This document shows positions 79 to 28,761 of a stretch of DNA of 32,665 bases, piece by piece; position 1 is the first letter of the stretch; each line of letters begins with the position of its first letter. Under the pieces are notes generated by a model that was given only the letters and a program-made list of their open reading frames with translations, had not been told where the DNA came from and ran no database searches. Both the position numbers and the translations under genes were made by a program. Source of the DNA: Candidatus Gottesmanbacteria bacterium GW2011_GWC1_43_10 (GTDB taxonomy: Bacteria; Patescibacteriota; Microgenomatia; UBA10105); the NCBI GenBank assembly GCA_000995415.1, contig LCEX01000007.1, forward strand, positions 1 through 32,665, written 5' to 3'.

Positions 79-1271
79 TTTTGAAATGAGTTCATGGGCG
101 TCACAATGTCTAAATCCCCGTCGGCGGTTACTTCATCTGATTGCGTCGGATTCAGGCTAAAGGCTTTGGCTTCTGCCATCTTCGTCGATCCGGCAAGCTT
201 ACGTATTTCATAGTGAGGTTTTACTTCTGAAGGATAAACCCATTTTTTGTTTGAGTACACACGCTCCACGACAACTTCCATTTGTTTTACCGGAGTAGGC
301 GGGTAGAGATCGCGCGCATTCATTTTCAGTGCGGCTGCGATTATCTCCAACTCATTAATGGAGGGAAAAAGCCGTCCGCTTAAAAATTTGTGGATTTTAT
401 TTATACTCAGACCCGTCATTCTGGATAGAACCTCGTCGGTCATAAAACTATCTTGTGTTTTAACTCTAAGTAAATCGCTGAAAGAAGTTTTTTTTGCCGT
501 CAGATCGAGCAATGCGTTGTTGACTTCGTCCGGACGCAATACTGACAATTCTTGTTGAACTGCCGAACCAAGCTTGCCGGAAAAGGTAACAGCCATAATA
601 TAAGCTTCTTTACTTGTGTCGCGAGTCGTAAAAGAATGGGGTACATATGGTGTACCGTAATTTGAATCGCCGGTGTCCATAAACAAGGTGTGTGACCCAC
701 TGTCATCTTTCCAATGTAAATTTACCGGGCCCACATACATGGTAAGCTGATGCATGAAGTGTCCAGTGTTATAAGCAATATCTGGATCGTTTCCGTCTTC
801 TGTCGTTACTTCTCTTAATTCTTTAATCCATTCGGGTCTAAAGGGACCCAAATCGCTCATAGCGGCATCCCTGTATTCGTAGTACGGGGTTGGCATTCCA
901 TTTTTGTCTTTCCGGTCAAAAATTCTGCTGGTGGTTGCCGATTCCTGAGCATGTTTTACGATAACGCCGCCGTCCGTATCATCCCGTACAACTTCCAACG
1001 CAAGTCGAGAGACAGGGTATGTTGCCACCATTTTTTCAATAAGTTGATTTGTTTCGTCCTGAGAAGCTTCGCCCGCCAAAATACTTTTGACCGTTGGTAA
1101 CGGTAACTTAAGCTCCGAAGCTAAAAAATCGGGATGTCTTTTTATATCTCCGGCAACTCTCAACAGCAAACCACCCTGTCTTATTTTATAAGAAGGGTCC
1201 TCTGACTGTCTTGTACCGGGAACTCGTTGTTCTATCATATTTTTACACTGCTGTTTTAGCACGCACCTCAA
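75..1271 (-). CDS. mpnS: HEPD/MPnS-family non-heme iron dioxygenase, probable methylphosphonate synthase
   Basis: Likely converts 2-hydroxyethylphosphonate plus O2 into methylphosphonate (or hydroxymethylphosphonate if it behaves as HEPD). The family has tandem units of a helix-turn-helix-like helical domain and a cupin. Seen here: helical domain (about 35-95), first cupin (about 125-235), second HTH-like helical domain (about 275-325), then a short second cupin. Motif NTGHFMHQ gives Asn168, His171 and Gln175, and VPHSF gives His212. This matches the 2-His-1-Gln iron triad described for methylphosphonate synthase and the Asn three residues before the first His in HEPD. The second cupin stops about 70 residues after the HTH and looks incomplete (398 aa against about 440 usual). 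Last gene of the phosphonate operon, overlapping the reductase by 4 nt. An internal ATG at 1238 is an alternative start. Family call is strong; MPnS versus HEPD is inference. Confidence 0.8.
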   Translation of the reverse strand: MRCVLKQQCKNMIEQRVPGTRQSEDPSYKIRQGGLLLRVAGDIKRHPDFLASELKLPLPTVKSILAGEASQDETNQLIEKMVATYPVSRLALEVVRDDTDGGVIVKHAQESATTSRIFDRKDKNGMPTPYYEYRDAAMSDLGPFRPEWIKELREVTTEDGNDPDIAYNTGHFMHQLTMYVGPVNLHWKDDSGSHTLFMDTGDSNYGTPYVPHSFTTRDTSKEAYIMAVTFSGKLGSAVQQELSVLRPDEVNNALLDLTAKKTSFSDLLRVKTQDSFMTDEVLSRMTGLSINKIHKFLSGRLFPSINELEIIAAALKMNARDLYPPTPVKQMEVVVERVYSNKKWVYPSEVKPHYEIRKLAGSTKMAEAKAFSLNPTQSDEVTADGDLDIVTPMNSFQN

Positions 1272-2419
1272 TAAATTGCAACCAAGAACCTTTTAAGGCG
1301 CTGTTTATCATATTGTAGCGGAATGTTATTTACCCGATTTGTATAGAAGCTATCTTCAATAATCACATTAATATTTTCTTTTGTAATACCTAAAGCAGAT
1401 AGCTTGATTTTTAATCCAATGCGTATCATGAGTTGTTCTACGACATTTGCTCCCAGTGCCGGGGTGTGTGCGTTCAATGCTGAAAGAAGATGTTTTTGCC
1501 TATTTTTAGGCAACGCTGGAATTATGCCCCGCATAAAGCTTGGAAGCGTTACTGACGTAGCTTGTCCGTGTGTAACACCCCAGCGCGCGGTTAATGGATA
1601 AGAAACAGCATGACAGATTGTTGTTTGAGTATTGGAAAATGCGAGCCCCTGCATGAACGATCCCCATGCCATACGATCCCTGATTTTTTTTGTAGGATTA
1701 CGTACTGCATTTTCTAAGTTTGTACGTATTACGCTAATTGCCTCCAAAGCATATATATCAGATTGTCTATTGTGGTGTTTGTTCCAATAAGCTTCAATCG
1801 CCTGACACAATGCGTCCATACCGCTGGTTGCAGTATCTTTCTGGTTTAACGAATCGGTCAAATGAGAATCGACAATCGCAATGGCGGGGAACATGAAGCC
1901 CTTAGAATATAGAGAGTACTTTCTTTTATTATCTCCCCAAACGGTCGCCCATGGAGTAACTTCAGTTCCTGTTCCGGCAGTAGTGGGTATAGCAATATAT
2001 AGGAGCCCCTTCGCAGTTATTTTTTTTGATTTGGATACTAAATACTCCTCGATGAGTCCTTTGTGTGTGGTTAAAATAGCTGCACATTTCGCGGTATCCA
2101 ATACAGAACCCCCTCCGATTGCGATGATTGCTTCGTATCGATACTTTCTGCAATATGTAACGATCCTGTTAATGGTACTAAAATCGCTCCTTTTGATTTT
2201 TTCGTTGTAAACATCGATCGGTGTTTCTTTCAAATTCGAAATGACTTGACGGTAATCATCAGATTTTTTAAAATGTTCTCCGCAGACAAGAAGGGCAGAA
2301 TGAATACTTTTTTCAACTATTATATTCCCCAACAGTTGCAAGCTATTCCGACCAAAATATGCTTTTGTGGGCATTGAATACCGTTTAGTCTTTTTAGGCT
2401 CGAAAGTTTTAGCTTTCAT
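1268..2419 (-). CDS. Iron-containing alcohol dehydrogenase, probable phosphonoacetaldehyde reductase
   Basis: Group III alcohol dehydrogenase, 383 aa. Expected role from context: NAD(P)H reduction of phosphonoacetaldehyde to 2-hydroxyethylphosphonate, as PhpC does. The nucleotide-binding GGGS loop is at 102-105 and the GTGTEVTPWA stretch at about 149-158. Aligned to the FucO metal ligands (D-x3-H, then two His 14 apart), this protein has Asp202, His270 and His284, but Gln206 stands where the first His should be. It lies 19 nt after the decarboxylase stop and overlaps the dioxygenase start by 4 nt, so it is translationally coupled. Family assignment is firm. The substrate is inferred from the operon. 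The His-to-Gln change may be a subfamily trait or may alter the metal used. Confidence 0.85.
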   Translation of the reverse strand: MKAKTFEPKKTKRYSMPTKAYFGRNSLQLLGNIIVEKSIHSALLVCGEHFKKSDDYRQVISNLKETPIDVYNEKIKRSDFSTINRIVTYCRKYRYEAIIAIGGGSVLDTAKCAAILTTHKGLIEEYLVSKSKKITAKGLLYIAIPTTAGTGTEVTPWATVWGDNKRKYSLYSKGFMFPAIAIVDSHLTDSLNQKDTATSGMDALCQAIEAYWNKHHNRQSDIYALEAISVIRTNLENAVRNPTKKIRDRMAWGSFMQGLAFSNTQTTICHAVSYPLTARWGVTHGQATSVTLPSFMRGIIPALPKNRQKHLLSALNAHTPALGANVVEQLMIRIGLKIKLSALGITKENINVIIEDSFYTNRVNNIPLQYDKQRLKRFLVAIY

Positions 2420-2438
2420 GTGTCGCGCATTGTTGAGG

Positions 2439-3530
2439 TTAAAAATTCTCCATAAAACGGCTTTTTATTTGAGGACACGTATAGGCATCAGAAACCCTCT
2501 TAGCCACTTTATCATCAAATCTTACCTTAATATGAACAAAAACAGCACCATCATAGTTAGACAAGATCGATAAAAATAACGACAATTCTTTCAAAGTTGT
2601 AGCTTGATAAAAATTGTGGAATCTAAAAGCTTTCGCTAAATATGAGAAGTCGATATTCCTTGAGATGCTTGGTTGCCCGCCGGTGCTTTCATAGCTTTCA
2701 TTATCGAAAACAGTATACAAAATATTTTTATGAACTGCCGGATTAAATGAGGCTAATCCTCCAAGATGCATTAATAATGATCCATCTCCGTCAAAAACCA
2801 CAACGCGTTTATTTGTATTCGGGGCTAACCCTAATGCGATGGAAAAAATGTGTCCCATTGATCCGACCGTATAAAAATCCGGTGTATCTTTGATGGAAAA
2901 TGAATCACGGGTCGCGTATCCCGTGGTGGAAAGAAAAATCGCGCTTTTGAACAACTTTTCCTTGATCATCTTCATCGCTTCATATCTACTCATCTCATAC
3001 TTTGCATCAGTCAATTCGGAACCTACGAACGGTGTAAATGTATTTTTCCTAACAATAAGCGCAACCGGATTTTTTGTAATCCTCGCCTTTTGGGAAAGCT
3101 GTCTAATCTGTTGCACATACTCGGCGTCAGATATGATTTTATACGGAATGTTAAAAGTTTTGAGTATTTTTTCCATATTTTCCCCGACGATATCGTGTTC
3201 AGGAGCATCATGCCCTTTACCCCCCTCACCTCTCCAGGAAATAATGTAAAAGATCGGAATATTATAAACCTGATTCAGAGAAGTAAGCGCGTTAAGCGTA
3301 TTCATAAACCCAGAATTTTGTATTGCAACAATTGGAATAGTTCCTGAGGATAAATATTTGCCGGACGCAATACCTACAGCTAACGCTTCATTCGTAGGAT
3401 TAATTATTTCACACGCTTTACTGTTCCGGACATAATTCAAAAAATCTTTGAAATACGAACACGGTATCTCAACCAAGGGGCCGAGTTTATTGTGCATGAG
3501 AGCTTGTGTGAAATCCTTTGGATGAATCAT
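2439..3530 (-). CDS. ppd: Phosphonopyruvate decarboxylase (ThDP-dependent)
   Basis: Decarboxylates 3-phosphonopyruvate to phosphonoacetaldehyde, the step that pulls the unfavourable PEP mutase reaction forward. All parts are present in 363 aa: an N-terminal PYR-type domain with the ThDP-activating glutamate in NEALAVGIASG (Glu48), a Ppd-type ISWRGEGG...HDAPEH segment (about 97-112), and a C-terminal PP domain with GDGS (248-251) followed by the Mg-binding Asn277 in FDNESYESTGGQ. The start overlaps the PEP mutase stop by 4 nt (ATGA type). A sulfopyruvate decarboxylase is the main alternative, but the adjacent PEP mutase argues for phosphonopyruvate. Confidence 0.92.
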   Translation of the reverse strand: MIHPKDFTQALMHNKLGPLVEIPCSYFKDFLNYVRNSKACEIINPTNEALAVGIASGKYLSSGTIPIVAIQNSGFMNTLNALTSLNQVYNIPIFYIISWRGEGGKGHDAPEHDIVGENMEKILKTFNIPYKIISDAEYVQQIRQLSQKARITKNPVALIVRKNTFTPFVGSELTDAKYEMSRYEAMKMIKEKLFKSAIFLSTTGYATRDSFSIKDTPDFYTVGSMGHIFSIALGLAPNTNKRVVVFDGDGSLLMHLGGLASFNPAVHKNILYTVFDNESYESTGGQPSISRNIDFSYLAKAFRFHNFYQATTLKELSLFLSILSNYDGAVFVHIKVRFDDKVAKRVSDAYTCPQIKSRFMENF

Positions 3531-4480
3531 GTCTGTTTAGATTTGTCGTGTTGTTCATTTTCTTTTTGTGTAATTGCCAGTAATCCCGTCACTTCAAAGA
3601 GACTAGCAACTGGACCGCATACCACGTTTACTTCAAAAGATCGGTCATTAAGCAGAATGATTTCGCACGTTTTTTCCATCGCCGTATATGCAGATCGCAA
3701 CATATGATTTGCATATATAATGACCTGGAAACCGGCCTTAGCAAGTTCATCTGCGGTAATCGTGTTGTATGTTGTCGGTGCACAAACGAGCACTTTATTC
3801 TTTATCAACTTTTTAGGAAGCTGATAATATTTTTTGGCAAACTCTAATATTTCTGACGGGGTAGAGGATTTAGAATGTATCATTATTCCGTCCGCTCCGG
3901 CTGACAAAAATATCTTTGCTCTTCTGAGAGCATCAGCAACCGTTTCACCTGCTATCAAGCTTTCAAGCCGGGCCACAATCATAAAAGCCCTTTTTTGCTT
4001 CACTTGTACGCCTCTTCGTATTTTTTCAGCAAAGATATTCTGATCCTCAAGGCTTTGTTTTGTATCAACCAAACTATTCCGTTTAGGAAAAACTTTATCT
4101 TCTATAATGACCATGGAGACGCCTGCCCTTATAAGCCGCTTCACCAAATATTCAAAATGATTTACATCGCCACCGGTATCACCGTCAACGATCATTGGTT
4201 TGCCCGTTACTTCTAAAATTTGATTAATCGTATCTAGTCGAGAATCATGACTGACTACTTCAATATCCGGCAAACCCTTCGAAGCAGAATCTGTAAGACT
4301 ACTTTCCCAAAGCCCATCAAATGAAAGCGTGCGGCCTTTTTCTACTAATTGGAAGTTGTCTACAATCAAAGCACTTAATCCATTATGTACTTCCAAAACT
4401 TTAACGAATCCCCTTTTACGAATTAATTCTTTTAAGAGGGATACTCTTTTTTCGTTGTGAACAAACGTCTTAGAAAACAT
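3527..4480 (-). CDS. pepM: Phosphoenolpyruvate phosphomutase
   Basis: Rearranges phosphoenolpyruvate to phosphonopyruvate, making the C-P bond that commits carbon to phosphonates. Isocitrate-lyase/PEP-mutase superfamily barrel with the diagnostic EDK-x5-NS motif (EDKVFPKRNS), which separates PEP mutases from lyases, plus DGDTGG (Mg site), EVHNGLSA near the start, and DGLWESSLTDSASKG. The ORF track begins at a TTG (4513), but the ATG at 4480 is preferred. A perfect TATAAT at 4522-4527 would put the transcript start near 4515, leaving no leader for the TTG. About 317 aa, slightly longer than usual (about 295) because of a hydrophilic tail. First gene of the four-gene operon. Confidence 0.95.
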   Translation of the reverse strand: MFSKTFVHNEKRVSLLKELIRKRGFVKVLEVHNGLSALIVDNFQLVEKGRTLSFDGLWESSLTDSASKGLPDIEVVSHDSRLDTINQILEVTGKPMIVDGDTGGDVNHFEYLVKRLIRAGVSMVIIEDKVFPKRNSLVDTKQSLEDQNIFAEKIRRGVQVKQKRAFMIVARLESLIAGETVADALRRAKIFLSAGADGIMIHSKSSTPSEILEFAKKYYQLPKKLIKNKVLVCAPTTYNTITADELAKAGFQVIIYANHMLRSAYTAMEKTCEIILLNDRSFEVNVVCGPVASLFEVTGLLAITQKENEQHDKSKQT

Positions 4481-4498
4481 GATCCTAACCTCAAGTAT

Positions 4499-4550
4499 TT
4501 GATCCAAACACAATAAGATGTATTATAAGAACAAAGATGTCAAAATACAA
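4499..4550. promoter_or_regulatory. Overlapping divergent promoters of the phosphonate operon and the EEP gene
   Basis: On the minus strand, TTGTAT (4550-4545), a 17-nt spacer and a perfect TATAAT (4527-4522) precede pepM. On the plus strand, TTGATC (4499-4504), 16 nt and TATTAT (4521-4526) face the EEP-fold gene. The two -10 elements share bases, so the divergent units may compete for polymerase. These are sequence matches only; the -35 elements are weak. Confidence 0.5.
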
Positions 4551-6946: not shown

Positions 6947-8401
6947 TCAAGCAGACACCACCGGTAAGGAAAAGAAGAACGTGCTCCCCTGGCCGACGGT
7001 AGATTCGAGCCAGATTTTCCCTTTGAGGCCTTCAATGATTTGCTTGCTGATATAGAGCCCCAAACCCGTTCCCCCGACTTGTTTGGTGTAGCTACCCACC
7101 TGCGAAAATTTCTTAAACAGTAAGTCCTGGTCTTCTTTGGATATCCCGTGCCCGGTATCAGCTACCGAAACCACGATCATATTGTCTTTGCGGCTGGCTT
7201 TGATCGTGATTCCGCCTTCGTGGGTAAATTTAAGCGCATTCCCAATCAGATTTATCAGCACCTCTTTGACTTTATCGATATCGGCAAATACCGGCACCAG
7301 TTCACCGTCTGTTTCATATTTGAGATAAAGATTTTTCTCTTTGGCTGCCATCTGCAAATTATTAATCACTTCACTTATCAATTTGTCCATCCCGACTTTG
7401 ACCACGGTAAAGGTGAACCTGCCGGCTTCAATCCGGGAAATATTCAGTAAGTTATTGACGAGTCTGATCAGGCGGTCGTTTTCGTTGTAGGCCGCGGTCA
7501 AAAAGTCGCGCGACTCCTTACTTACCTCCCCGGCATATCCTTCCAGGATAGTCGAAATTGAGCCTTTGATCGCCGTCATCGGCGTCCTCAGTTCATGCGA
7601 AGCCAACGACACAAACTCGTCTTTCAACTTGTCAAGCTCCTGAAGTTTTTCATTAGCACTTTGCAACTCCGTATTTATTTGGCTTAATTTCTGATGTAAC
7701 TGCGCCCTGTCCAAAGCGATTGTCACCACATCAATCAGTTCCTCAAGCGTTTCTTTTTCTGCCCGTGACAGATCATCTACCCGTTTACCCAGTCCGATAG
7801 TCAACGCTCCGATCGCTTTTTCTCCCAATATCAGTGGGTAGACAATGAGCGTTTTTACTTTAATGATTTTGTCAATTTCATCAGCTACCTCTTGTACAGC
7901 AAAAGGCACTAATATATCCAGGATATTGCCGGTGATTTTGCGCTCCTTATCTTTGATGGCATCAATAATCAAGTTGGAGGTATCGTCAAGCGCCACTATC
8001 AACTCTGAAAATGATTTACCCATGAGTTCAATGGCTTGGAGAATATCAGGAGATTGGGTGATAGCCAGCGGACGCAGTACCTTTTCCTGGTAGTCAACCA
8101 CGTTGATCAAAACTGCATTGAAATTGAGTTCTTTTGCCACCGTATCAACTATCCGCTGGGCGATCTCACCCACATCGAATGATGTCATGGTGATGGCATA
8201 AAGGGTCCGCAAGACTGACAAGGTTTTATTACGGATCGCGAGTTCAAAGTTCTGTTTATACATCTCCTCGGTGACTTTTTTGTATGAAGCCTCATCGTGG
8301 ATTGACAAAACGCTATCGTCACCACTTTGTAGGGATTGGTTTCCAGAATTACTTACAGGCTTATTCGAAGAACCATAGTAGACCAAATTCTGTGCAGGCA
8401 T
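6947..8401 (-). CDS. Soluble GAF-domain sensor histidine kinase
   Basis: 484 aa from the preferred ATG at 8401; the track extends to 8476 but that overlaps the divergent neighbour. Order: N-terminal tail, a GAF-like sensory domain (about 75-233), a short coiled linker, a HisKA domain with the phospho-acceptor in SHELRTP (His269), and a HATPase domain with N box NLIGNALKF, G1 ADTGHGIS and G2 GGTGLGLY. There are no membrane helices, so it senses a cytosolic ligand or partner. No response regulator lies beside it, making it an orphan kinase here. AGGAG is only 1 nt from the ATG, unusually tight, so the exact start is uncertain. Confidence 0.9.
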   Translation of the reverse strand: MPAQNLVYYGSSNKPVSNSGNQSLQSGDDSVLSIHDEASYKKVTEEMYKQNFELAIRNKTLSVLRTLYAITMTSFDVGEIAQRIVDTVAKELNFNAVLINVVDYQEKVLRPLAITQSPDILQAIELMGKSFSELIVALDDTSNLIIDAIKDKERKITGNILDILVPFAVQEVADEIDKIIKVKTLIVYPLILGEKAIGALTIGLGKRVDDLSRAEKETLEELIDVVTIALDRAQLHQKLSQINTELQSANEKLQELDKLKDEFVSLASHELRTPMTAIKGSISTILEGYAGEVSKESRDFLTAAYNENDRLIRLVNNLLNISRIEAGRFTFTVVKVGMDKLISEVINNLQMAAKEKNLYLKYETDGELVPVFADIDKVKEVLINLIGNALKFTHEGGITIKASRKDNMIVVSVADTGHGISKEDQDLLFKKFSQVGSYTKQVGGTGLGLYISKQIIEGLKGKIWLESTVGQGSTFFFSLPVVSA

Positions 8402-8432
8402 ACTCCTTATTATAAAGGTTTTACAGGAATTC

Positions 8433-8441
8433 TGATATAAT
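8433..8441 (+). promoter_or_regulatory. Extended -10 promoter for the LysRS-like gene
   Basis: TGATATAAT is an extended -10 (TGn plus perfect TATAAT) about 20 nt before the ATG at 8462. No fitting -35 is seen, which extended -10 promoters tolerate. On the opposite strand another TATAAT lies just before the kinase start. Confidence 0.5.
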
Positions 8442-8461
8442 CTTTTGGGAAGAAACAAACC

Positions 8462-9928
8462 ATGCATATTGACCACCGTTTATATATTGATTCCGATCTG
8501 GAAAAAGGCATTGACAAAAGGCTTGAACAGGTTCTTCCGAAACTGATCGTCGTCGGCACCGGTATCACCAGTTCTCATCTGGGTGACGAACGCAATTTAC
8601 GCGAGTTTTTATTTGCGGCGGAGGTGACGCGTTTTTTGCGTGCCAAAAACTACAATGTGTTTTTTATGTTGGCCGACGACTCTTATGATGCTTTGGATTT
8701 CCGCCAATTGAGGGTCGCCGTTAATAAAAACGAAGAGCTGATAGCCAAATTTGAAAAATACTGCGGCATGCCGCTCAAATTTATCCCGGATCCATTTGCC
8801 TGCCACGATAGTTATTCGGCTCATTTCCAAAACGAAATCCTTAAACGTTTTAATGACTTTGGCATCTTCCCCAATATTATCGACTCCTACTCAGCATACG
8901 CTTCGGGGTTATATGACGCGGCTAAAGAAATAGTTTTCTCAAGACATGAAGAAATAAAAGCGTTTCTGAAACAAAAATTCCCCTCGTACACGATGAAAAA
9001 ACTCTTTTATCCGGTTTGCCCTGATTGTAAACGGATGGCCGGAGTAGAAAAGACGGAAATATCCGGAGCCAAAATCCATATCCATTGCACCACCTGTCAA
9101 AAATCATCAACCCATTTATGGAAACAAATACCGGGTAAATTTAGCTGGAAAATAGACGAAGCTATCAAATGGAATGTCTATAAAACTGATTTTGAACCTT
9201 TTTCCAAGGCCTATTTGGACCCCGATGTCGGTAGTTTCTATATAGCCAAAGCGCTATCGGAAACCTTCTTTGGCGGCAACGTTCCAGAGGTGATTGAATA
9301 TGGTCAAGTAATCATGGACAAGAGTTTTTCATATACATTATTAAATACTCTACCGCTCCCTGCCTTTCGCTCACTCTATCTGGAACGCAGAAAAGCTGAT
9401 ATTCAGATTTCACTGCAGAAAATCATCCATGTAGCCAAACAACATCTGGTTGAGAAGGAATTATCCTTTTATGACTACGTCCACGAAAGACTTCCTTATG
9501 ACCTTTTGGAACATTTAAATGGACAACTCCATGATCCTTTTTGGCAAAAGCTATTGCATCTCGGTTTAGAGTTTAACCGGCGCCTCCTCAAGCGGGAAAT
9601 GTATCCCCAACTGCCGGCACTGGAAGCGCTAAAATTACAAAACGCAGAGACTTTAGGGCAAATCAGGTCGTTAATACTCTGGACTCTTACCTGGCGCCGG
9701 CAACCTAATCATGTATATACAGATTTTTCAAACCACTACCAACAATATTTAAAAGATCATAAAATCCAGAAATCCGCGCTTTTCCCAATACTTAGAAAAC
9801 TGCTTTCCCAGGAACAGGGTGTCCCGGTTCGGCGGCTTCTTTACTTTGCTCCGCTCCATTATCTCTATGCCTGCCTTGCACTAATTGATGAAACCAAGGA
9901 AGTAATTGCACCACTTAGTGTAAAATAA
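8462..9928 (+). CDS. Class I lysyl-tRNA synthetase-like protein with degenerate KMSKS motif
   Basis: 488 aa. Several blocks follow class I LysRS (archaeal type): SSHLGD...NLREF at the HIGH position (His39-Leu-Gly-Asp), ADDSYDALD, IPDPFACHDSYSAHF (about 108-122), a four-Cys zinc knuckle CPDC...CTTC (186-212), then FSWKIDEAIKWN and FEPFSKAY. The expected KMSSSKG loop is replaced by MDKSFSYTLL (285-294) and the HIGH region has extra residues. The C-terminal helical half resembles an anticodon-binding cage. It may have lost tRNA charging and kept adenylate chemistry or tRNA binding, or be a diverged synthetase. Followed after 45 nt by a co-directional aldehyde dehydrogenase and transporter. Homology is convincing; function is unknown. 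Confidence 0.75.
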   Translation: MHIDHRLYIDSDLEKGIDKRLEQVLPKLIVVGTGITSSHLGDERNLREFLFAAEVTRFLRAKNYNVFFMLADDSYDALDFRQLRVAVNKNEELIAKFEKYCGMPLKFIPDPFACHDSYSAHFQNEILKRFNDFGIFPNIIDSYSAYASGLYDAAKEIVFSRHEEIKAFLKQKFPSYTMKKLFYPVCPDCKRMAGVEKTEISGAKIHIHCTTCQKSSTHLWKQIPGKFSWKIDEAIKWNVYKTDFEPFSKAYLDPDVGSFYIAKALSETFFGGNVPEVIEYGQVIMDKSFSYTLLNTLPLPAFRSLYLERRKADIQISLQKIIHVAKQHLVEKELSFYDYVHERLPYDLLEHLNGQLHDPFWQKLLHLGLEFNRRLLKREMYPQLPALEALKLQNAETLGQIRSLILWTLTWRRQPNHVYTDFSNHYQQYLKDHKIQKSALFPILRKLLSQEQGVPVRRLLYFAPLHYLYACLALIDETKEVIAPLSVK

Positions 9929-9973
9929 ATAGCACTGACAAAGACATATTATTATTTTGACTCTAAGGAAAAC

Positions 9974-11386
9974 ATGATTTATGCAAACAGTTTAATAGCT
10001 GGAAATATTGTCACAACCAAGCATGTTCAGACAAACTTTAGTCCAGTGGATAATATTGAATCATCGCAAGTGAGTCTTTTAACTCAGGCAGAACTATCTC
10101 AAGTCTTTATTCAAGCCAAAAAAATAAAAAATAGAGAAATCAAATCTGATTATTCTGAGCTTGATAATTTGGCTAGATATCTTAAGAATAATTATTTACA
10201 GTTCATAAATCAAATTATAAAGGACGCAGGATTTACAAAAAAAGATGCCCAAGATCTGGTAGACTGTTCAATCGAGTTTTGCGAAGACTATCATTTACAT
10301 CTAAATGAAATTATAAAAGATGAAATGACCACGTCTTTTTCTTTTAAAAAGGGTGTGAATCATAAAATTAGACTTGCATCAACTCCCTTTGGTCTGATTG
10401 CTGCCACAACCCCCCGAAACACACCTTTAATTACCGAGCTGACTGTGATTATTCATGCACTTTGGTCGGGAAATGTAGTAGTTTTAAGACCTTCTCCAGG
10501 TGTTGCGGCAACTGTCGCACTGCTTATTGACGGCTTAAAAAAAAGCTTCCGTTCTGAAACACTAGCCAGACTAAATATCGCCTTTTCAGATGCAAAAGAC
10601 TTTGTCAGTACGAGTCTAGAGTACTCGAATCTTTTACATTACGTAGGCAGTACAAAATATTTGGAAGGGACACTTGTAGCAGGCATCAAAAAAGGTGTCA
10701 AAGTTTTAGTAGATGGAGATGGTTGCAGTTTAGTTTTAGTTGATACAACAGCAAATATAGAAGAAGCGGCCAAAACTTGTTATCGAGGCTTAATTCGCTG
10801 CAACGGGGAAATTTGTATCAGTGTACGAGTGATCGTAGTCGAACAATCAGTCTATGAAGAATTCAGCGCTAAATTTTTGAGTCTGGTAAATAAAACAATC
10901 GTGTCTCCACCTAATGATAATAAGAAATCTTTAATGGGTCCACTTTTTTCTTCAGCTCAAGCGGAAAATATACTTAACGTCGCTAAAAAATATAAACTTT
11001 TATCTGGTCAATTGAATCCACTCTCATATGGACAAAATTATATTTCTCCAGTCGTAGTAGAACTAAAACCAACCGATCGGGCTTTTTTGAGAGAAAGTTT
11101 GTTTGGACCAATTGTAGGTATATCTTCCTATCAAGGAAATGGGTGGAAAAGATGGCTCGCGGAAAATCCCATAAACTTAACTGATGTTCTTTTTAGTCAA
11201 GATGAGGGATTTATTGAAGAGTTTTTAAACATCAGCAAATCTCCACGTAAAGTGGTCAATGCCGATCCCACAGTCGAATCTGTTTTCGAGCCTTGGGGAG
11301 CTTTTTTACCTTCGGGGTGGAATGATGTAAGTTATTGGTATTATAAATATCGTAATTATTATCAACTCGTTAGAGAAAGCAAGTAA
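9974..11386 (+). CDS. Divergent aldehyde dehydrogenase superfamily protein
   Basis: 470 aa. ALDH landmarks: TPRNTPL with the oxyanion Asn149 (canonical PWNFP), VVVLRPSP where the usual Lys is Arg172, GSTKYLEG (Rossmann loop), and GEICIS holding the catalytic Cys281. The canonical ELGGK general-base motif reads as DGDGC, so Asp247 stands in for Glu. The C-terminal strand region is unusual (EPWGAFLPSGWND). Oxidation of an aldehyde or a CoA-acylating reaction are both possible. AAGGA precedes the ATG, and the EamA gene begins 3 nt after its stop, so the two are cotranscribed. The altered motifs suggest a specialised substrate or a carboxylate-reductase-like role. Confidence 0.75.
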   Translation: MIYANSLIAGNIVTTKHVQTNFSPVDNIESSQVSLLTQAELSQVFIQAKKIKNREIKSDYSELDNLARYLKNNYLQFINQIIKDAGFTKKDAQDLVDCSIEFCEDYHLHLNEIIKDEMTTSFSFKKGVNHKIRLASTPFGLIAATTPRNTPLITELTVIIHALWSGNVVVLRPSPGVAATVALLIDGLKKSFRSETLARLNIAFSDAKDFVSTSLEYSNLLHYVGSTKYLEGTLVAGIKKGVKVLVDGDGCSLVLVDTTANIEEAAKTCYRGLIRCNGEICISVRVIVVEQSVYEEFSAKFLSLVNKTIVSPPNDNKKSLMGPLFSSAQAENILNVAKKYKLLSGQLNPLSYGQNYISPVVVELKPTDRAFLRESLFGPIVGISSYQGNGWKRWLAENPINLTDVLFSQDEGFIEEFLNISKSPRKVVNADPTVESVFEPWGAFLPSGWNDVSYWYYKYRNYYQLVRESK

Positions 11387-11388
11387 AA

Positions 11389-12237
11389 ATGTGGTTCTTG
11401 TATGCACTTTTAGGGGCTATAATAACTGGAGTCGGACAAGTTTTGGTCAAAAAAGGACAAATTAAACTCACACCTCTCTTAGATAATTTATTAGCTGCTG
11501 TTATCGTTAATCTTATTTTGGTTCCTTTTCTTCTTCTTAAAGGCGTTGACTTGGGTGCAGGAAAAGGTGTTTTGATTTATGCTCTGATTGCTGCTACGGC
11601 GTATGCAACGTTTTACTATATTATTAGCTTTGGCAATGTTTCCTTAATGATCGGTCTCATCAATACGTTTCCTATAGTTACCATTGCTTTAACGGTTAGT
11701 TTTTTACGCGAATGGCCAAATATATATCAATGGTGCGGTATTTTTCTGGTGGTATTAGGAACCGTCTGTATAAGTAGGGAAAAGTCCACAACTAAGACAA
11801 TAAATAAAAGCAACATGTGGATTTTTTGGGGACTAGTTGGGTCTTTAGCCATAGGCACTGCCGAGTTTGTCACAAAATTAGCCACACTACTGGTAGATGG
11901 TTTTACCTTTACTTTCTTTGTCTACCTAATGTATGTTCCACCGCTATTAATTTTTATGATCTTGGACAAAAAAGGACGGAAATTCAATCAACTCAAAAAT
12001 GTATCAAGTTTGTTTAATACCCTCATCGGTATCTTCTTAATTGAAGCTGGTTTGATAGCTATTGCTTTAGCTTACCAACATGGCCTTGCTAGTTTAGTCT
12101 CACCCGTAGTTGCAACCCATTTATTGATAACGGCTGTGTTAGCCACCTATATTTTAAAAGAAAAACTTTTACGAATCCAGAAAATTGGTATTCTACTTAA
12201 TCTAATTGGGATAAGTATTATTGGCATCAGTTCTTGA
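11389..12237 (+). CDS. EamA/DMT-superfamily transporter
   Basis: 282 aa with about ten hydrophobic helices in two repeats, typical of the drug/metabolite transporter superfamily; the N-terminal YALLGAIITGVGQVLVKKG and the internal WGLVGSLAIGTAEFVTKL open the two halves. Members export or import small metabolites through the inner membrane. Only 2 nt separate it from the aldehyde dehydrogenase stop, so it may move that enzyme's substrate or product. Substrate cannot be predicted. Confidence 0.85.
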   Translation: MWFLYALLGAIITGVGQVLVKKGQIKLTPLLDNLLAAVIVNLILVPFLLLKGVDLGAGKGVLIYALIAATAYATFYYIISFGNVSLMIGLINTFPIVTIALTVSFLREWPNIYQWCGIFLVVLGTVCISREKSTTKTINKSNMWIFWGLVGSLAIGTAEFVTKLATLLVDGFTFTFFVYLMYVPPLLIFMILDKKGRKFNQLKNVSSLFNTLIGIFLIEAGLIAIALAYQHGLASLVSPVVATHLLITAVLATYILKEKLLRIQKIGILLNLIGISIIGISS

Positions 12238-12273: not shown

Positions 12274-13074
12274 ATGCGATTTAATAAATACATCTATTTC
12301 CTTTTAGGATTCTTCGTTTCTAGTTTTATCTATTACATAGCAGGTGTTCAAGCCTCTGGACCAAAAGATCTACCCTTTTTCCTTATGTTTAGTGTCTCAA
12401 ATTGTGTATTAGCATTAATAGGCGGATTTACGGGATTATTGGTGTCTAGACATTGGGGTGGTTTCAAAAGCGCAGTAGGTAAAGCCGTGCTTTTCATGTC
12501 TCTGGGAACTACTTCATGGGGATTGGGTAATGTTGTGTGGTCATTTTATAATTTTGTACTTCATCTAGAAGTACCATACCCTTCACTTGCAGATCTTGGT
12601 TTTGCAGGAGCGGTACCTTTATGGGCGATTGGCATGTATTACCTTTCTCAAGCAACTGGCGCAAAATTTAGTTTACGTAGGTTAAGGGGACGTGTGTTAC
12701 TAATAGTTTTACCAATTATTGCGGCTATAGCAAGCTATTATTTTCTGTTTGTAATAGCCAGAAATTCTTCGTTTGAAGTAGAAGGGGGCTTGCTTAAAAT
12801 TTTTCTAGACTTTTATTACCCAATTGGAGATTGGGTTATTTTAACTTTGAGTTTCCTACTTTTTGGTCTGTCTTTTAAATATCTGGGCGGTAAATTTAAG
12901 TGGCCTGTTTTTATAACAATACTTGGATTTATAGTGATGTTTCTAGCTGATTTTTCATTCTCTTACACTACAACCGTAGGAACTTATTACAATGGAAATA
13001 TCTCTGATCTGCTTTTTGCTATTGCATTGTTTGTGATCAGTTTTGGAATAAACGGTCTTGATGCAAAAACCTAA
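12274..13074 (+). CDS. Multi-pass membrane protein (7-8 TM), sensor-like, unknown function
   Basis: 266 aa, with seven or eight hydrophobic segments separated by short loops. The PYPSLADLGF segment after the third or fourth helix resembles a motif seen in 7TM input modules of histidine kinases and GGDEF proteins, but no signalling output domain is fused here. It starts 36 nt after the transporter and ends 5 nt before the next small gene. It may act as a free-standing membrane sensor partner of the small protein. This is inference from layout and resemblance only. Confidence 0.6.
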   Translation: MRFNKYIYFLLGFFVSSFIYYIAGVQASGPKDLPFFLMFSVSNCVLALIGGFTGLLVSRHWGGFKSAVGKAVLFMSLGTTSWGLGNVVWSFYNFVLHLEVPYPSLADLGFAGAVPLWAIGMYYLSQATGAKFSLRRLRGRVLLIVLPIIAAIASYYFLFVIARNSSFEVEGGLLKIFLDFYYPIGDWVILTLSFLLFGLSFKYLGGKFKWPVFITILGFIVMFLADFSFSYTTTVGTYYNGNISDLLFAIALFVISFGINGLDAKT

Positions 13075-13079
13075 AAACT

Positions 13080-13370
13080 ATGTTACAAATACCAGTTGTT
13101 CAAAATATTGTGAATATCATTATTGACCATCAAAGAGCTATCATTGGCCCACTGGCACTTGAACAAGCCAGCAGAGTTCCCGGTGTCAAAATCGCCGGCG
13201 GCGAACATGTAGAAGTTGAAGCCGGTATAAATCCGCAGTCCCTTCTCAATCAACTTGTAAAACAATATGAAACACTTTTTGGACTCGCCTCTGTCGAAGT
13301 TTGTAAAGATGCGGTGAAAGAATTAAAACCCACAGTTTCTGCAAATGATCTTCCAGAAATCCTGCGCTAA
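13080..13370 (+). CDS. Small conserved-looking cytosolic protein, unknown
   Basis: 96 aa, predicted mostly helical with a central Val/Glu-rich strand (GGEHVEVEAG). The N-terminal HQRAIIGPLALEQA and the LVKQYETLFG segment look like a compact folded unit. No catalytic motif was recognised. It begins 5 nt after the 7-8-TM gene on the same strand, so the two probably work together. The tight coupling and protein-like composition support a real gene. Confidence 0.55.
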   Translation: MLQIPVVQNIVNIIIDHQRAIIGPLALEQASRVPGVKIAGGEHVEVEAGINPQSLLNQLVKQYETLFGLASVEVCKDAVKELKPTVSANDLPEILR

Positions 13371-14056: not shown

Positions 14057-16285
14057 TTAGTTGCTAATGCTAAATTTAGGATAAAAACCGCTATTCCTTA
14101 GTTTTTTTTGAAAAAGAAACGGAAACACGTCTATATTAAGAGTGTGTATAGTATAACCGCCAACTGCCATCCCCTTCCTTGCCAAACGAAAATTTTCCTG
14201 AGCCAATCGGGAATCTCCTTGTAAATAATATATCAGACCTAAAGCCAAATAATTCCAAAACATATCTCCGATCCGATATCCCAAATGTTTACGAAGTAAT
14301 AAGCTTTTATTGAGATAGTTTATAGCACGACTAAACTGACGTTCATGGAGGAAAATACAACCGATTCTGGATAAAATAGTCTCTTTCTGAGGCAAGTCAT
14401 CAATCGTGTTTACGATGCGGAGCGCCCGCCGTAAATAAGATTTGGCCAGTTTTCTTTTACCCAACATCCAATAGGTCTCACCGATATAAGTAAAAATGTC
14501 GCCCTGTTTTTCTTGATTACCTTGTTTAGTAAAATACGTGAGAGCCTGTTGGAAAAATCGCAGTGCCTTTTTGGAGTGGCGCTGGCTTTGGTAAATTTTT
14601 CCCAACCGAATCCAGGCCAGCGCAATTAAATACGCATCTTTTAATCCTTTTGCCAGTTCCAAACCAACTTGTGCATACTTCTGGGCTTTATTTATATCAC
14701 CTTGCCAATAATGCAACCAACAGAGTTCCCTTAGTAAACAAGTGGCTTCGGCGGAAGCATTATTAACCTTTTGAGAAGCGCGAACCACTAATCGACTGTA
14801 TCTTTCTACTGCCGACCACCGACCGGTATCCCACAAAAATACGCCTAAATATTCCCAGATGTTGATCATTTGCTGCCATAACTTAAGCTCAAAACAAATT
14901 TTCACTATTCCAGTAATATTTTTCAGTTCTTCCTCAACTTTAGGATAAAAATGTCGATTTGCCCTTCCTCCATCTGCCAAAAACTTATGATAATACAAAG
15001 CAAGTAAGTGGTAAGTAGAAGTATTTAGTTTTTTCTGCACAAAGATTTTAACCAATGAATGCAGTCTGTATCTTTTATTCACCGATCGTTCTACCAATGA
15101 CATTTTGTGAAGGACCTGAAGAGTTTGATTTGTTTCTTCCAAACTTAGTTTGTTGATAAAAGCCACTGCTTCAGAGCTAAAATCTACACCTCCAAAGGCA
15201 CCCAGGGAAATAAATACTTGCTTTAGTCTTGTATCCGAACTGTTGAAAGCCAAATCCAAAGATAGCTCCAGATTTTTATTATCATATTGAAACTCTTTCA
15301 AACTCACTTTTTGCTTTCTGATGCGCTCTAGAAATTCATATAATTTCTGAGGGTGGAGGGCTATGCGTCCAAAGAAAATTGTCAGGGCTAGCGGTGAATA
15401 ATAAAGTTGTTTACAAATGATTTGAATCTGCATCTTATTGCTTAAAACATAAGGTTTTCCCAACAATTGATATGCTAGTTGCAACGCTTCTGGTTGTGTA
15501 AAACTGGTTAACTCCAATTTTTGGAATTGGCGGATTTCGGAAGGCAAACTTTTTGAGGTAATTAATAAAGAATATTTTGGATCTTTGGCTGGCAAAAGGA
15601 AACGCAAAGAATCAAAATTGTCAACACTGTCTAAGATAAGAAGTGTGTCACGTTGATCAAGAATAGACCTGACGGTTTTGGCTTTGACTGCTGTATCCCG
15701 AATACTCGATACGTCTTCGCCGTATGTTTGGGCAATATGCGTCAGGATATCATCTATTTTTAGAATATCGAAGCGGTACCACAATATCCCGTCTTTAAAC
15801 CTATTTCTTAAAATATGTCCAATGCGGATAGCTAAAGTGGTTTTCCCGACACCGGCCATGCCATGTATCACTACCGGAGTTTTTTTGAATATTGCCCAAA
15901 CAGCATCTTTTAATGACTTTTCTCTGCCGACAAAATGAGCAGGTTCTTGAGGTACTGTAAACGGCACACTAGACAGTAATTTAGGCGAGAGTTGCAGGGA
16001 TTCGTCTTCTGAAAGATCACGTTGGCTGGCAGCAGCTAGAAATTGGTTTGCTTCAAGTAATGTGGTTACTCCACTTTTTTGAACAAATACTTTCAGTATT
16101 GCAAAAAGTACGTCTCGGTTATGGGGAATCCTCTTTCCCTTTTGCCAGTGGGAAAAAATACTATCTTCATAGACCTTGCCTTCCTCGGCTAAAGCAGATC
16201 CGAAGTCAGAAAGTGTCGCCAATTCGCTCTTTAAACGGTATTTGCGAAACAGATCTGCAAACCGCGGCATTTGGGATGGTATCAC
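14057..16285 (-). CDS. STAND NTPase regulator: XRE-like N-terminus, NB-ARC ATPase, TPR repeats
   Basis: The track starts at a GTG (16294) that overlaps its own AGGAGG; the GTG at 16285, 8 nt after AGGAGG, is the better start (742 aa). In track numbering: XRE-like helical domain (about 10-90) with HWQKGKRIP; an NB-ARC/AP-ATPase module opened by FVGREKSL (121), Walker A GMAGVGKTT (145-153) and Walker B LLILDSVDN; winged-helix region to about 430; then tetratricopeptide repeats to the C-terminus. STAND proteins are ATP-driven switches whose TPRs sense a ligand or protein. It may regulate transcription, possibly of itself and the divergent Nudix gene through the palindromes between them. A defence role is possible but nothing nearby supports it. 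Confidence 0.85.
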   Translation of the reverse strand: MIPSQMPRFADLFRKYRLKSELATLSDFGSALAEEGKVYEDSIFSHWQKGKRIPHNRDVLFAILKVFVQKSGVTTLLEANQFLAAASQRDLSEDESLQLSPKLLSSVPFTVPQEPAHFVGREKSLKDAVWAIFKKTPVVIHGMAGVGKTTLAIRIGHILRNRFKDGILWYRFDILKIDDILTHIAQTYGEDVSSIRDTAVKAKTVRSILDQRDTLLILDSVDNFDSLRFLLPAKDPKYSLLITSKSLPSEIRQFQKLELTSFTQPEALQLAYQLLGKPYVLSNKMQIQIICKQLYYSPLALTIFFGRIALHPQKLYEFLERIRKQKVSLKEFQYDNKNLELSLDLAFNSSDTRLKQVFISLGAFGGVDFSSEAVAFINKLSLEETNQTLQVLHKMSLVERSVNKRYRLHSLVKIFVQKKLNTSTYHLLALYYHKFLADGGRANRHFYPKVEEELKNITGIVKICFELKLWQQMINIWEYLGVFLWDTGRWSAVERYSRLVVRASQKVNNASAEATCLLRELCWLHYWQGDINKAQKYAQVGLELAKGLKDAYLIALAWIRLGKIYQSQRHSKKALRFFQQALTYFTKQGNQEKQGDIFTYIGETYWMLGKRKLAKSYLRRALRIVNTIDDLPQKETILSRIGCIFLHERQFSRAINYLNKSLLLRKHLGYRIGDMFWNYLALGLIYYLQGDSRLAQENFRLARKGMAVGGYTIHTLNIDVFPFLFQKKLRNSGFYPKFSISN

Positions 16286-16331
16286 GAACTTCACCTCCTG
16301 ATAAGGCGTATTTTAAGATCTACTATGGGTT

Positions 16332-25501: not shown

Positions 25502-26284
25502 TCAACTCGAGGCCGAAGTGTACTGGGTTAATGCATATCTCCACAATTTGAGACTGACTACAAAAAATCCAATTCCTATCACCCCTGAAACTAACATAAA
25601 TTGTGGAGCCAAAAGTCCAAAAAGTGCTTTCGGCGGAAACGTCATCATGACACCAACCGGAATAATAAATGTGATAAATCCGCGCAAAGGTTCACTATAA
25701 ATATCTACCGGAAACCTGGCCATACTTGTGATATCCCGATAAATCATAATCGCGTGGTCAATTTCAGTTGTCAGAATTCCCAATGCCAATACCACAATAT
25801 GAAACGCAGCGGAAATCAAAAAAGCATTTATAAGTAACAGCATAAAAGAAACAAACGTTACAACAGTTACAGATAATTGCGTAATGAACAAAATTAATAA
25901 TCCTATATACGGAACTAATACTATCAAATCCAAAGGGTCTGCTCCGCCAAACAAAATTTTAAACAGTGGATTTATGGGTTTTATTAAAATGTAATCAAAA
26001 TAACCGCTTATTATATGCTCGCGAAACCGGTATACATCCCGAAACAAAAGTTGGGTCAGTGTATCAATCACATTGTAAGTCAGGAAAAAAACAAGTGATT
26101 GGTTAAGTGAATATCCGGCCAGAGACTGAGTTTGTGTCACGATTAAAACCACAATCAGCATAAAAAACCCAAACCGCATGAGTTTAGCAAAAGTAAATAA
26201 AAATGCACCCACACGTGATACAAACGCTATTTGAAATGCGCTTAGTGTGAAGCGTAACCAAATTTTGAAATAGTATTTCAACAT
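25502..26284 (-). CDS. ABC-2 type transporter permease (B-type, second copy)
   Basis: 260 aa from the ATG at 26284; the 14 extra residues of the track lie in a repeat. Six hydrophobic helices in the arrangement of the uncharacterised ABC-2 permease family often encoded as a pair behind a daunorubicin-type ATPase. The C-terminus LTQYTSASS matches the end of the permease at 27168-27956 (MKYYTSASS), so the two are paralogues. It is the last gene of the ABC cluster, separated from the others by a 92-bp gap with repeats. Substrate unknown; export of a lipid or polysaccharide is common for the fold. Confidence 0.85.
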   Translation of the reverse strand: MLKYYFKIWLRFTLSAFQIAFVSRVGAFLFTFAKLMRFGFFMLIVVLIVTQTQSLAGYSLNQSLVFFLTYNVIDTLTQLLFRDVYRFREHIISGYFDYILIKPINPLFKILFGGADPLDLIVLVPYIGLLILFITQLSVTVVTFVSFMLLLINAFLISAAFHIVVLALGILTTEIDHAIMIYRDITSMARFPVDIYSEPLRGFITFIIPVGVMMTFPPKALFGLLAPQFMLVSGVIGIGFFVVSLKLWRYALTQYTSASS

Positions 26285-26375
26285 AATTATCCAGTAATTC
26301 CTGCCTGCCGGCAGGAAATTATCCAATTTTATTTGATTATTGGATAATTGGTATTTATTTGAGAATTGGATAATT
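26285..26375. repeat. AATTATCCA repeat cluster with a central palindrome
   Basis: AATTATCCA occurs twice directly (26285-26293, 26317-26325) and twice inverted as TGGATAATT (26341-26349, 26367-26375). TTCCTGCCTGCCGGCAGGAA lies between the first two. It is the only sizeable gap inside the permease cluster. Confidence 0.7.
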
Positions 26376-26376
26376 C

Positions 26377-27171
26377 TTATCGTCCTTCTGCGCTATAAAC
26401 TTTGAGTCCTTTTCGCCAAACCAAAAACATGGCCTTAGTTAACAAGAATACCCAAACCGCCATTACTCCAAAACCTTGAATTGTTGCGCTAGTAGTCAGT
26501 TGACCTAAATAAACTTTCACCGGGAAATAAAACATATACGGAAATGGTGTCAACATGAGTATTTGACTCAAAATTTTAGGTAAAATATCAATTGGGAAAA
26601 AATTGCCGGCGACAAAATCCAAAAGTATTATAAATATAAACCTGGTGGCCCAAATCTCACTGGTCCAAAATCCCAAGAACCCCAAAAGTACACTGATACA
26701 AAAATATACTCCCACCGCACCGACAAATGCGACTACTGCCAAAATTATAAGTCCTAAGTTTTCCTGAAAGAAAAACGGCGGTCTAAAAAGCAAATAGATA
26801 ATTGCAAATTCAAACACTGTACAACCAAAGTTGAGAAGCTTGTCACTTACATCCCGTGCCCCTAGACTGATGAAGTAATTGAAAGGCTTAAGTAAATAAT
26901 TCGTCAACTTACCTTCGTTGATTTCAGAACCAATATTTTGGGTCCGTGTGGCAAACACAAAGTTACTCACGAGATAAACCATCAGCACATAGGTAAGCAT
27001 CATTTCCCGTGAATAACCAAAAAACTGTTGATTTCCTGAATAAATTGACGACCACAAAAAGTAAGTAATCAAAAACCGGATGACCACCCGCACCCGCCAT
27101 AATATAAAGTTCAGTCGGTAAACCAACGCTTCATCCCAGGTATTTTTGATGAGCATCCAATATTTTTTCAT
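26377..27171 (-). CDS. ABC-2 type transporter permease (A-type, second copy)
   Basis: 264 aa with six hydrophobic helices. The start MKKYWMLIKNTWDEALVYR and the end KGLKVYSAEGR resemble the permease at 27953-28753 (end KGIKKYTAIGI), marking them as paralogues of the A type. The ATG overlaps the stop of the preceding permease by 4 nt. It would pair with a B-type subunit to form the membrane channel driven by the ATPase at 28762-29742. Confidence 0.87.
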   Translation of the reverse strand: MKKYWMLIKNTWDEALVYRLNFILWRVRVVIRFLITYFLWSSIYSGNQQFFGYSREMMLTYVLMVYLVSNFVFATRTQNIGSEINEGKLTNYLLKPFNYFISLGARDVSDKLLNFGCTVFEFAIIYLLFRPPFFFQENLGLIILAVVAFVGAVGVYFCISVLLGFLGFWTSEIWATRFIFIILLDFVAGNFFPIDILPKILSQILMLTPFPYMFYFPVKVYLGQLTTSATIQGFGVMAVWVFLLTKAMFLVWRKGLKVYSAEGR

Positions 27172-27956
27172 GAACTCGCACTCGTATAATACTTCATCGC
27201 AAACTGCCAGAACTTTCTTGATCCAATGAAAAATAATGTGGTCAGCAGAAACAAACCTATGGCGTCGAATAGAGTGGCTTTAGCCAACAATACTTTTGTT
27301 GGTGACACAATCACAAATGTCAACGGAAATAAAATATACAAAACTACTTGAGAATACCTTTGAAACATTTCTCGAGGGAATCGCGCCATCCCCATAATAC
27401 TAAACATAAACTCGACTATGTTGGATAGTCTTGGTACCCAGATAAGAAGTGTCACGACACTCATCCAAACTGAATAAATGAGTAGCAATCCGGCTCCAAA
27501 AAAAAGTAGAAAAACTCCACTGGAAACCCAGGTCAGTTTAAATTGGATTTGAACCAGAATATAAATTGTAAAAGCCATTGCTGCAACTAAACGTGTCACG
27601 GCCCCGAAGTTTACATACATGAAACTCGTCAAAAATTGGGAATCGATCGGCTTCAGGAGCCAAGCGTCGAGTCTTCCGAAGTTTACTAAGGCAGCTATAT
27701 TTTCAAAATTTGGAGTCAAAAAGATGTGAAATAAACCCACACCAACACTGAAAACTCCGGTCAAAAGTAAGAGTTCGTTCTTGGTCCAACCGAAAATTTG
27801 GGTTGATCTTGAGGTTAGTAAAAGCATTTGTACGATAATAAATATCCCCCAAACCAAGCTTGATACAAGACTGCTAACAAAGTTTGTCCGGTAAATCACG
27901 AGCTTAGCGAAATTGATCTTTAGTAAATATCGGTAGACTTTTAGGTATCGCTTCAT
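27168..27956 (-). CDS. ABC-2 type transporter permease (B-type, first copy)
   Basis: 262 aa with six hydrophobic helices, starting MKRYLKVYRYLLKINFAKLVIYR and ending MKYYTSASS. Overlaps the genes on both sides by 4 nt, so the three permeases are translationally coupled. It shares the internal FP(R)-type loop MARFPREMF / MARFPVDIY with the B-type copy at 25502-26284. Confidence 0.87.
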   Translation of the reverse strand: MKRYLKVYRYLLKINFAKLVIYRTNFVSSLVSSLVWGIFIIVQMLLLTSRSTQIFGWTKNELLLLTGVFSVGVGLFHIFLTPNFENIAALVNFGRLDAWLLKPIDSQFLTSFMYVNFGAVTRLVAAMAFTIYILVQIQFKLTWVSSGVFLLFFGAGLLLIYSVWMSVVTLLIWVPRLSNIVEFMFSIMGMARFPREMFQRYSQVVLYILFPLTFVIVSPTKVLLAKATLFDAIGLFLLTTLFFIGSRKFWQFAMKYYTSASS

Positions 27957-28753
27957 ATTCCAATCGCAGTATATTTTTTAATTCCCTTGACCCAAAGCGA
28001 ACGATAAATCAGATATAACAGGCTTACCCACAATAGCTGGTTCAGTAAAAGTTTAGCTAACTCAAAAGGAAGCAATTTTCCTTGTAGTACTAATACCGGG
28101 TAATAAATCATGTAAGGAAAAGGTGTCATATATGCAAATTTTGATATAAACTGCGGATAAAATTCTATAGGCATCACGAACCCTGCTAAAACCAAAAGTG
28201 TGACAAATACTAATTCCTGAAGGCCGTGGTAATCTGTCATCCAAAAAGTTATCAGCCCTATGATCATTTTGAACAGAAAAGATATTCCATATGCCAGCAT
28301 GAAAACCGGAATTAACCAAGTTATATTTTGAAATGTCAAGTCGATTCCCAATAATCTTGGATAGAAGATGGAAATCGCAATAAAAATCAAAACGGCAAAA
28401 CTTGTCTGCAATAGACGATAAGGAAATTCAGTCAGAAATTTAAATCCCAAATAAGAAAAAGGTTTTAATAAGTATGTAGATAATTTGCCTTCTTTGATAT
28501 CGTATTCTGCTACTTCTTCTTCAATATGAACATGAAGTAAAGTGCTAGTTAACATAAGCAATAAGTAATAAGAAGTGATTGAAGATGAATTCCATCCTGA
28601 CAGACTGATAGATTGTTCTGCAAATGCGCCTTGCCAAAAAATAAGCAGAGTCAGAGGATTAATGACTGCCAACAGAAACCATACAAACGAACGTCCTCTT
28701 GAATCCAAGGCGTCGTGCAGATTTAAACTGAAAATAGTGACAATTTTCTTCAT
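27953..28753 (-). CDS. ABC-2 type transporter permease (A-type, first copy)
   Basis: 266 aa with six hydrophobic helices; the conserved VMPIEFYPQFISKFAYMTPFP-like loop before the fifth helix also occurs in the other A-type copy (FFPIDILPKILSQILMLTPFP). It follows the ATPase gene by 8 nt and overlaps the B-type permease by 4 nt. Expected to form a heterodimer with a B subunit. Confidence 0.87.
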   Translation of the reverse strand: MKKIVTIFSLNLHDALDSRGRSFVWFLLAVINPLTLLIFWQGAFAEQSISLSGWNSSSITSYYLLLMLTSTLLHVHIEEEVAEYDIKEGKLSTYLLKPFSYLGFKFLTEFPYRLLQTSFAVLIFIAISIFYPRLLGIDLTFQNITWLIPVFMLAYGISFLFKMIIGLITFWMTDYHGLQELVFVTLLVLAGFVMPIEFYPQFISKFAYMTPFPYMIYYPVLVLQGKLLPFELAKLLLNQLLWVSLLYLIYRSLWVKGIKKYTAIGI

Positions 28754-28761
28754 ACATAATT

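Follow-up and report, generated by a model that had tools for sequence, protein, structure and literature searches.

Gene content of the locus

The window analyzed here is the whole 32,665-nt stretch of contig LCEX01000007.1 from Candidatus Gottesmanbacteria bacterium GW2011_GWC1_43_10; it is contig C7 of a 1.4-Mb, 56-contig genome. The genes treated below (A to E and a divergent histidine kinase gene), with the motif positions within A, are as follows.

6947-8476, minus strand: GAF-HisKA-HATPase histidine kinase (Pfam), divergent from A, probable start near 8402
8462-9928, plus strand: A, class I lysyl-tRNA synthetase (LysRS)-like protein, 488 aa (PF01921, tRNA-synt_1f, E = 3.9e-41, residues 17-287)
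8585-8596, plus strand: DERN, codons 42-45 of A, replacing HIGH (HxGx); D, E, R, and N invariant in 4/4 A proteins
9017-9097, plus strand: Cys4 knuckle of A, C186xxC189...C209xxC212; each Cys in 28/28 LysRSs and 3/3 full-length A proteins
9203-9214, plus strand: SKAY, codons 248-251 of A, replacing GKDH; invariant in 3/3 full-length A proteins
9299-9334, plus strand: codons 280-291 of A, YGQVIMDKSFSY, site of the missing KMSKS loop (alignment with 28 LysRSs)
9974-11386, plus strand: B, aldehyde dehydrogenase (ALDH)-superfamily partner, 470 aa (PF00171, E = 1.1e-40; LuxC, E = 4.4e-8)
11389-12237, plus strand: C, EamA/DMT transporter, 282 aa (PF00892, E = 4.8e-27)
12274-13074, plus strand: D, membrane protein, 266 aa, about 6 hydrophobic segments, no Pfam family
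13080-13370, plus strand: E, small protein, 96 aa, conserved downstream of D

The ALDH-superfamily and EamA genes are thus the neighbors that a sequence-only reading of this DNA had named as an aldehyde dehydrogenase and an exporter. Elsewhere in the window, genes for a PEP mutase, a phosphonopyruvate-decarboxylase-like TPP enzyme, and an iron alcohol dehydrogenase stand in a row (1268-4513, minus strand), an arrangement resembling a cassette for phosphonate biosynthesis in a Patescibacterium. Also on the minus strand, an ABC ATPase (28762-29742) and three ABC2_membrane_6 permeases (25502-27956) probably make up a single exporter operon (25502-29742).

Homology of A to class I LysRS

A is homologous to class I LysRS, as the sequence-only reading had claimed. 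Its catalytic domain scores 141.6 bits against PF01921 (cutoff, 27), and the Cys knuckle is retained; against TIGR00467, the lysine--tRNA ligase equivalog, it scores 119 bits, below the cutoff of 147.55. The nearest solved structure, and the sole clear solved relative of A by sequence, is 1irx, the Pyrococcus horikoshii (P. horikoshii) class I LysRS (E = 1e-18 by sequence, 4e-24 by profile). In profile-profile comparison the homology spans residues 28 to 311, approximately, and the C-terminal part (residues 285 to 488) matched the LysRS C terminus with an hhalign E value of 0.42, from a shallow profile. Three orthologs are 53% (L008), 52% (L041), and 47% (L009) identical to A; the last is partial, leaving three full-length sequences in our sample. 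AlphaFold models were of low confidence (mean pLDDT, 41 with 2 input sequences and 47 with 4; pTM, about 0.3), too poor for a fold search or a structural claim.

HIGH, GKDH, and KMSKS are the ATP-handling parts of class I synthetases. We aligned the four A proteins with 28 LysRSs of related genomes and found all three motifs lost from A. Positions 1 (H) and 3 (G) of HIGH are present in 28/28 LysRSs; in 4/4 A proteins the motif is DERN, so that the change at HIGH noted earlier is real but is a full replacement rather than an alteration. The LysRS counterpart of SKAY is GKDH or GKEH, with its H in 28/28; A retains the K, while D has become A and H has become Y. Hence FEPFSKAY, which had been listed as a LysRS hallmark, is present but is itself an altered GKDH motif. 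The KMSKS loop, already reported as missing, is deleted in all three full-length proteins. Other LysRS residues are retained: T36, S38, D76, the four cysteines, K226, W229, W237, E245, K249, and Y280. Moreover, the substitutes at the lost motifs are themselves fixed across A, as SSxLGDERNLREF and DFExFSKAYLDPDVGS.

With HIGH, GKDH, and KMSKS gone, adenylate chemistry by A is unlikely. The retained LysRS residues make it plausible that A holds an amino acid. Since the ATP motifs were replaced by other invariant residues while the LysRS core was kept, the pattern argues for a new, constrained function rather than decay. The idea that A is a decaying, functionless pseudo-enzyme, for which the motif loss might speak, we consider scarcely credible, as it is already contradicted by conservation: the frames are open in four genomes of four families, at 47 to 53% identity, with new residues fixed at the lost motifs.

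Housekeeping LysRS, phylogeny, and distribution of A

The sequence-only reading turned in part on whether A is the only LysRS of its genome. It is not: a canonical class I LysRS of 789 aa, with HVGS, GKDH, and KMSSS, is encoded on another contig (G000:C16:43740-44798), and A is therefore not the housekeeping enzyme. The canonical protein also carries an Anticodon_2 domain and, at its C terminus, a B3/4 domain (L005 1468-3837, G000:C16), the editing domain of PheRS type. Class II synthetase matches on contigs C9 and C28 were rejected as class II LysRS; by inspection they are an AspRS and an EpmA-like protein.

A tree built from the catalytic region places A in a clade of its own (support, 100/100) whose stem measures 3.2 changes per site; the host LysRS clusters with the LysRSs of its own family. 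The tree thus rejects a recent origin of A as a copy of the host enzyme. The sequence L100 groups with normal LysRSs in this tree.

Of 374 genomes of the class, 4 encode an A ortholog, each representing a different family, and a further family search added none. A 380-genome sample of the phylum held ordinary LysRSs alone and no A orthologs; its weak matches L043 and L044 are ordinary LysRSs with HIGH and KMSKS-like loops. These counts refer to one genome per species, with collections beyond the class sampled in part and metagenome-assembled genomes interrupted by contig breaks. A plasmid search with A gave four weak class I LysRS-like matches, none covering 80% of the query; a phage search gave no matches, and the sole match in a virus collection was a chance match. 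Two virus-labeled IMG/VR contigs (L102 and L103; 416 and 465 kb) encode very diverged class I LysRSs that retain KMSKS (KISKSKG), with a stem of 3.0.

Partner B and the conserved gene string

B has the catalytic Cys (C281; 10814-10816), the oxyanion Asn (N149), and the conserved NAD-site Glu (E374) of ALDHs, all three invariant in the 3 complete B proteins. The position of the ALDH general-base Glu corresponds to Asp247 in an ungapped alignment or Val244 in a gapped one, and the two alignments disagree. B weakly resembles ProA (5 bits).

The 4 genomes of 374 that encode B are precisely those that encode A (chance, 1e-9). The two genes adjoin in three genomes, and in the fourth (G091) they are split over two contig ends, with A on one and B-EamA-D-E-kinase-regulator on the other. 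The window, L008, and L041 show the gene order A-B-EamA-D-E; in L041 an aldo/keto reductase gene lies between A and B on the opposite strand. Relative to those of the window, the D proteins of the other A loci are 63 to 70% identical and the E proteins of the other three are 42 to 49% identical. Downstream of E, three A genomes encode a GAF-type histidine kinase and a response regulator; in the window, the homologous kinase is upstream of A and divergent, with no adjacent response regulator. Isochorismatase-family proteins are encoded near A in the window and in L008, but at differing places, and for this reason we left them out of the module.

Thus, the gene set of 8462-12237, whose conservation the sequence-only reading had put forward for checking, is conserved as A-B-EamA, and this makes the small-molecule pathway it suggested for A and its neighbors likely. 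The set extends past these three genes, however, to D, E, and the histidine kinase, and the same module is elsewhere headed by a decarboxylase-family gene.

The D-E-kinase module and its heads

Across the class, 30 of 374 genomes encode a D-family protein. Outside the A loci, we examined 23 more loci strongly matching D (L071-L093). By gene picking, E comes after D in 19 of these; the kinase is present in 22 and EamA in 12. In 19 of the 23, a gene of a basic-amino-acid-decarboxylase family lies near D: 1 OKR_DC_1, 6 Orn_Arg_deC (one split by a contig end), 6 AdoMet_dc, and 6 PvlArgDC, four mutually unrelated families. In the remaining 4 loci, D is at or near a contig end or on a short contig. 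These heads are assigned as decarboxylases by their Pfam family, and those of the AdoMet_dc family may be genuine AdoMetDCs. An NNMT/PNMT-type methyltransferase, another amine-like theme, is encoded in one PvlArgDC locus. A protein of about 300 aa similar to LPG_synthase_C, the domain of the lysyl-tRNA-dependent MprF, is encoded beside D in 14 of the 23 loci (L077, L078, L081, L082, and L084-L093; by phmmer, Pfam confirmed where checked), including most of those with a decarboxylase head, and in no A locus.

We searched genome-wide for Orn_Arg_deC, AdoMet_dc, and PvlArgDC genes. Within 8 kb of D lie 17 of the 29 genes of these three families (22 genomes), where 0.5 would be expected; the binomial value of 7e-23 ignores genome relatedness and how the loci were chosen. 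The four A genomes have no Orn_Arg_deC or PvlArgDC gene, and among them the window genome alone has an AdoMet_dc gene, on another contig (L104 5991-6428, G000:C8), near the contig end and away from the module.

The A loci share D, E, the kinase, and EamA with the decarboxylase-headed module, but in 4/4 the head is A+B, not a decarboxylase-family gene, and their EamA (C) is closest to that of PvlArgDC and AdoMet_dc loci. From this kinship and from the lack of Orn_Arg_deC and PvlArgDC genes in the A genomes, with the one AdoMet_dc gene elsewhere, we conclude that A+B occupies the decarboxylase slot of the D-E-kinase module.

NB-ARC (STAND) proteins adjoin the module in the window (14057-16294, minus strand) and in L008 (5800-7821), as well as in L084, L089, and L091. 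A D-like membrane domain is found on the NB-ARC protein in L008 and on a protein of similar length in L084, L089, and L091; D may be a sensor domain common to two kinds of regulator.

Proposed function of A+B

We propose that A+B serves as an alternative head: it would bind lysine or a lysyl group and turn it into a basic metabolite for export, in connection with a sensor module. We give this general explanation an even chance, and each specific chemical version of it considerably less. The usual head of the module would be a basic-amino-acid-decarboxylase-family enzyme making a di- or polyamine-type product. In the A loci, A, with its LysRS core largely kept and no ATP handling, would hold lysine or a lysyl group, the latter possibly from Lys-tRNA charged by the normal LysRS, as in cyclodipeptide synthases. 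B would act on a carbonyl via Cys281 and its NAD(P) fold, giving a lysine-derived basic compound such as an amino-aldehyde; the aldo/keto reductase of L041 would suit an aldehyde product. EamA would export the product, and D, E, and the histidine kinase would respond to it or to its effect. Lysine as the substrate, the nature of the product, the direction of transport, and sensing are what we infer from these gene families. An aldehyde-forming pair is chemically distinct from a decarboxylase, which counts against the explanation, as do the divergent kinase of the window with no regulator beside it and the small number of complete A sequences (three). Instead of signaling, the module might alternatively serve amine export for pH or energy balance.

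Given the loss of the ATP motifs, the activated form might be Lys-tRNA, or A might be a HisZ-like subunit of B; either role would fit that loss better than ATP-dependent ligation does. In the first and boldest form, a LysRS-derived, ATP-independent A would transfer lysyl from Lys-tRNA to a reductase of ALDH type, which would form a lysine-derived aldehyde signal, with the heads of the module interchangeable; we regard this full scheme as a long shot.

In the second, which we consider unlikely, A would be a lysine-sensing regulatory subunit of B in the style of HisZ-HisG, binding lysine without adenylation and switching B on or off, so that B is the sole enzyme. The loss of every ATP motif with retention of LysRS-invariant core residues agrees with such a role, as does the strict one-to-one pairing with B (by co-occurrence), and HisZ itself is a regulatory subunit without adenylation (PMC9437257). 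Yet no other enzyme for a basic product is constant across the four loci, and the strongest conservation in A is in the new active-site loop, SSxLGDERNLREF, which suggests catalysis.

Alternatively, like MshC or EpmA, A could use ATP and its altered motifs to activate an amino acid, which it would then ligate to B or a small molecule. The fold homology does extend through residue 311, and three of the four sequences have SHLGD in the loop, which could represent a displaced HxGx; however, the fourth reads SGLGD, which shows that the histidine is not conserved, and GKDH and KMSKS are gone too. We find this improbable. Of the earlier suggestion that a synthetase paralogue had been reused for amino-acid ligation, the LysRS paralogy therefore stands, and ligation by ATP-PPi chemistry is weakened by the loss of HIGH, GKDH, and KMSKS.

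That A is a diverged second LysRS, charging a tRNA under special conditions in an incidental neighborhood, is very improbable: its 488 aa are close to the length of LysRS, and its C-terminal part is mostly helical in the low-confidence models, but that part alone has no detectable homology to the LysRS C terminus (at the depth of its shallow profile), a normal LysRS is present, HIGH and KMSKS are lost, and B co-occurs perfectly with A.

Comparison with known systems

With class I LysRS (LysRS1; PF01921, TIGR00467, 1irx), A shares the region of residues 28 to 311, the Cys4 knuckle, T36, W237, E245, K249, and Y280. It differs in having none of HIGH, GKDH, and KMSKS, in falling below the TIGR00467 cutoff, in its separate, long-stemmed clade, in a C-terminal part that is not recognizable with a shallow profile, and in being tied to B. 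Judged by the three features tested, A is not a functional LysRS; it would be a repurposed synthetase paralogue.

Cyclodipeptide synthases are not known to carry HIGH or KMSKS. Like A, they combine a class I synthetase core with metabolite operons, a likeness of description, not sequence; A differs in its LysRS-derived core, its retained Zn knuckle, and its ALDH partner. They are described as class I synthetase-like and aminoacyl-tRNA dependent (PMC3105412, as cited in PMC9437257), and the motif loss in A is consistent with ATP-free action of this type on aminoacyl-tRNA. HisZ resembles A as a non-adenylating synthetase paralogue (putatively so for A) paired with a metabolic enzyme, but has a class II fold and HisG rather than an ALDH as its partner. 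EpmA/PoxA, LysU, and LysX are, like A, related to LysRS, and they have roles outside normal charging or on top of it; to our knowledge, they are all class II, unlike A. LysU, PoxA, and LysX are the only entries in the LysRS row of a 2022 review of synthetase paralogues (PMC9437257), and our literature search, largely outside subscription journals, turned up no description of a class I LysRS paralogue of the kind of A.

Some AdoMet_dc homologs, among them members from the candidate phyla radiation, are ornithine or arginine decarboxylases (PMC10407285). These AdoMetDC-derived enzymes resemble the AdoMet_dc heads of the sister loci and belong to a different enzyme family from A; the main text of that paper mentions neither a transporter nor a histidine kinase.

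If our proposal is true, a class I LysRS has been turned to metabolism. One sensor-kinase module has five unrelated kinds of head, namely four decarboxylase families and the A+B pair, an indication that bacteria with such reduced genomes devote some of their few genes to the export, and perhaps the sensing, of amino-acid-derived, amine-like molecules. The module would then offer a testable lead to chemical communication or to energy and pH management in a mostly uncultured group.
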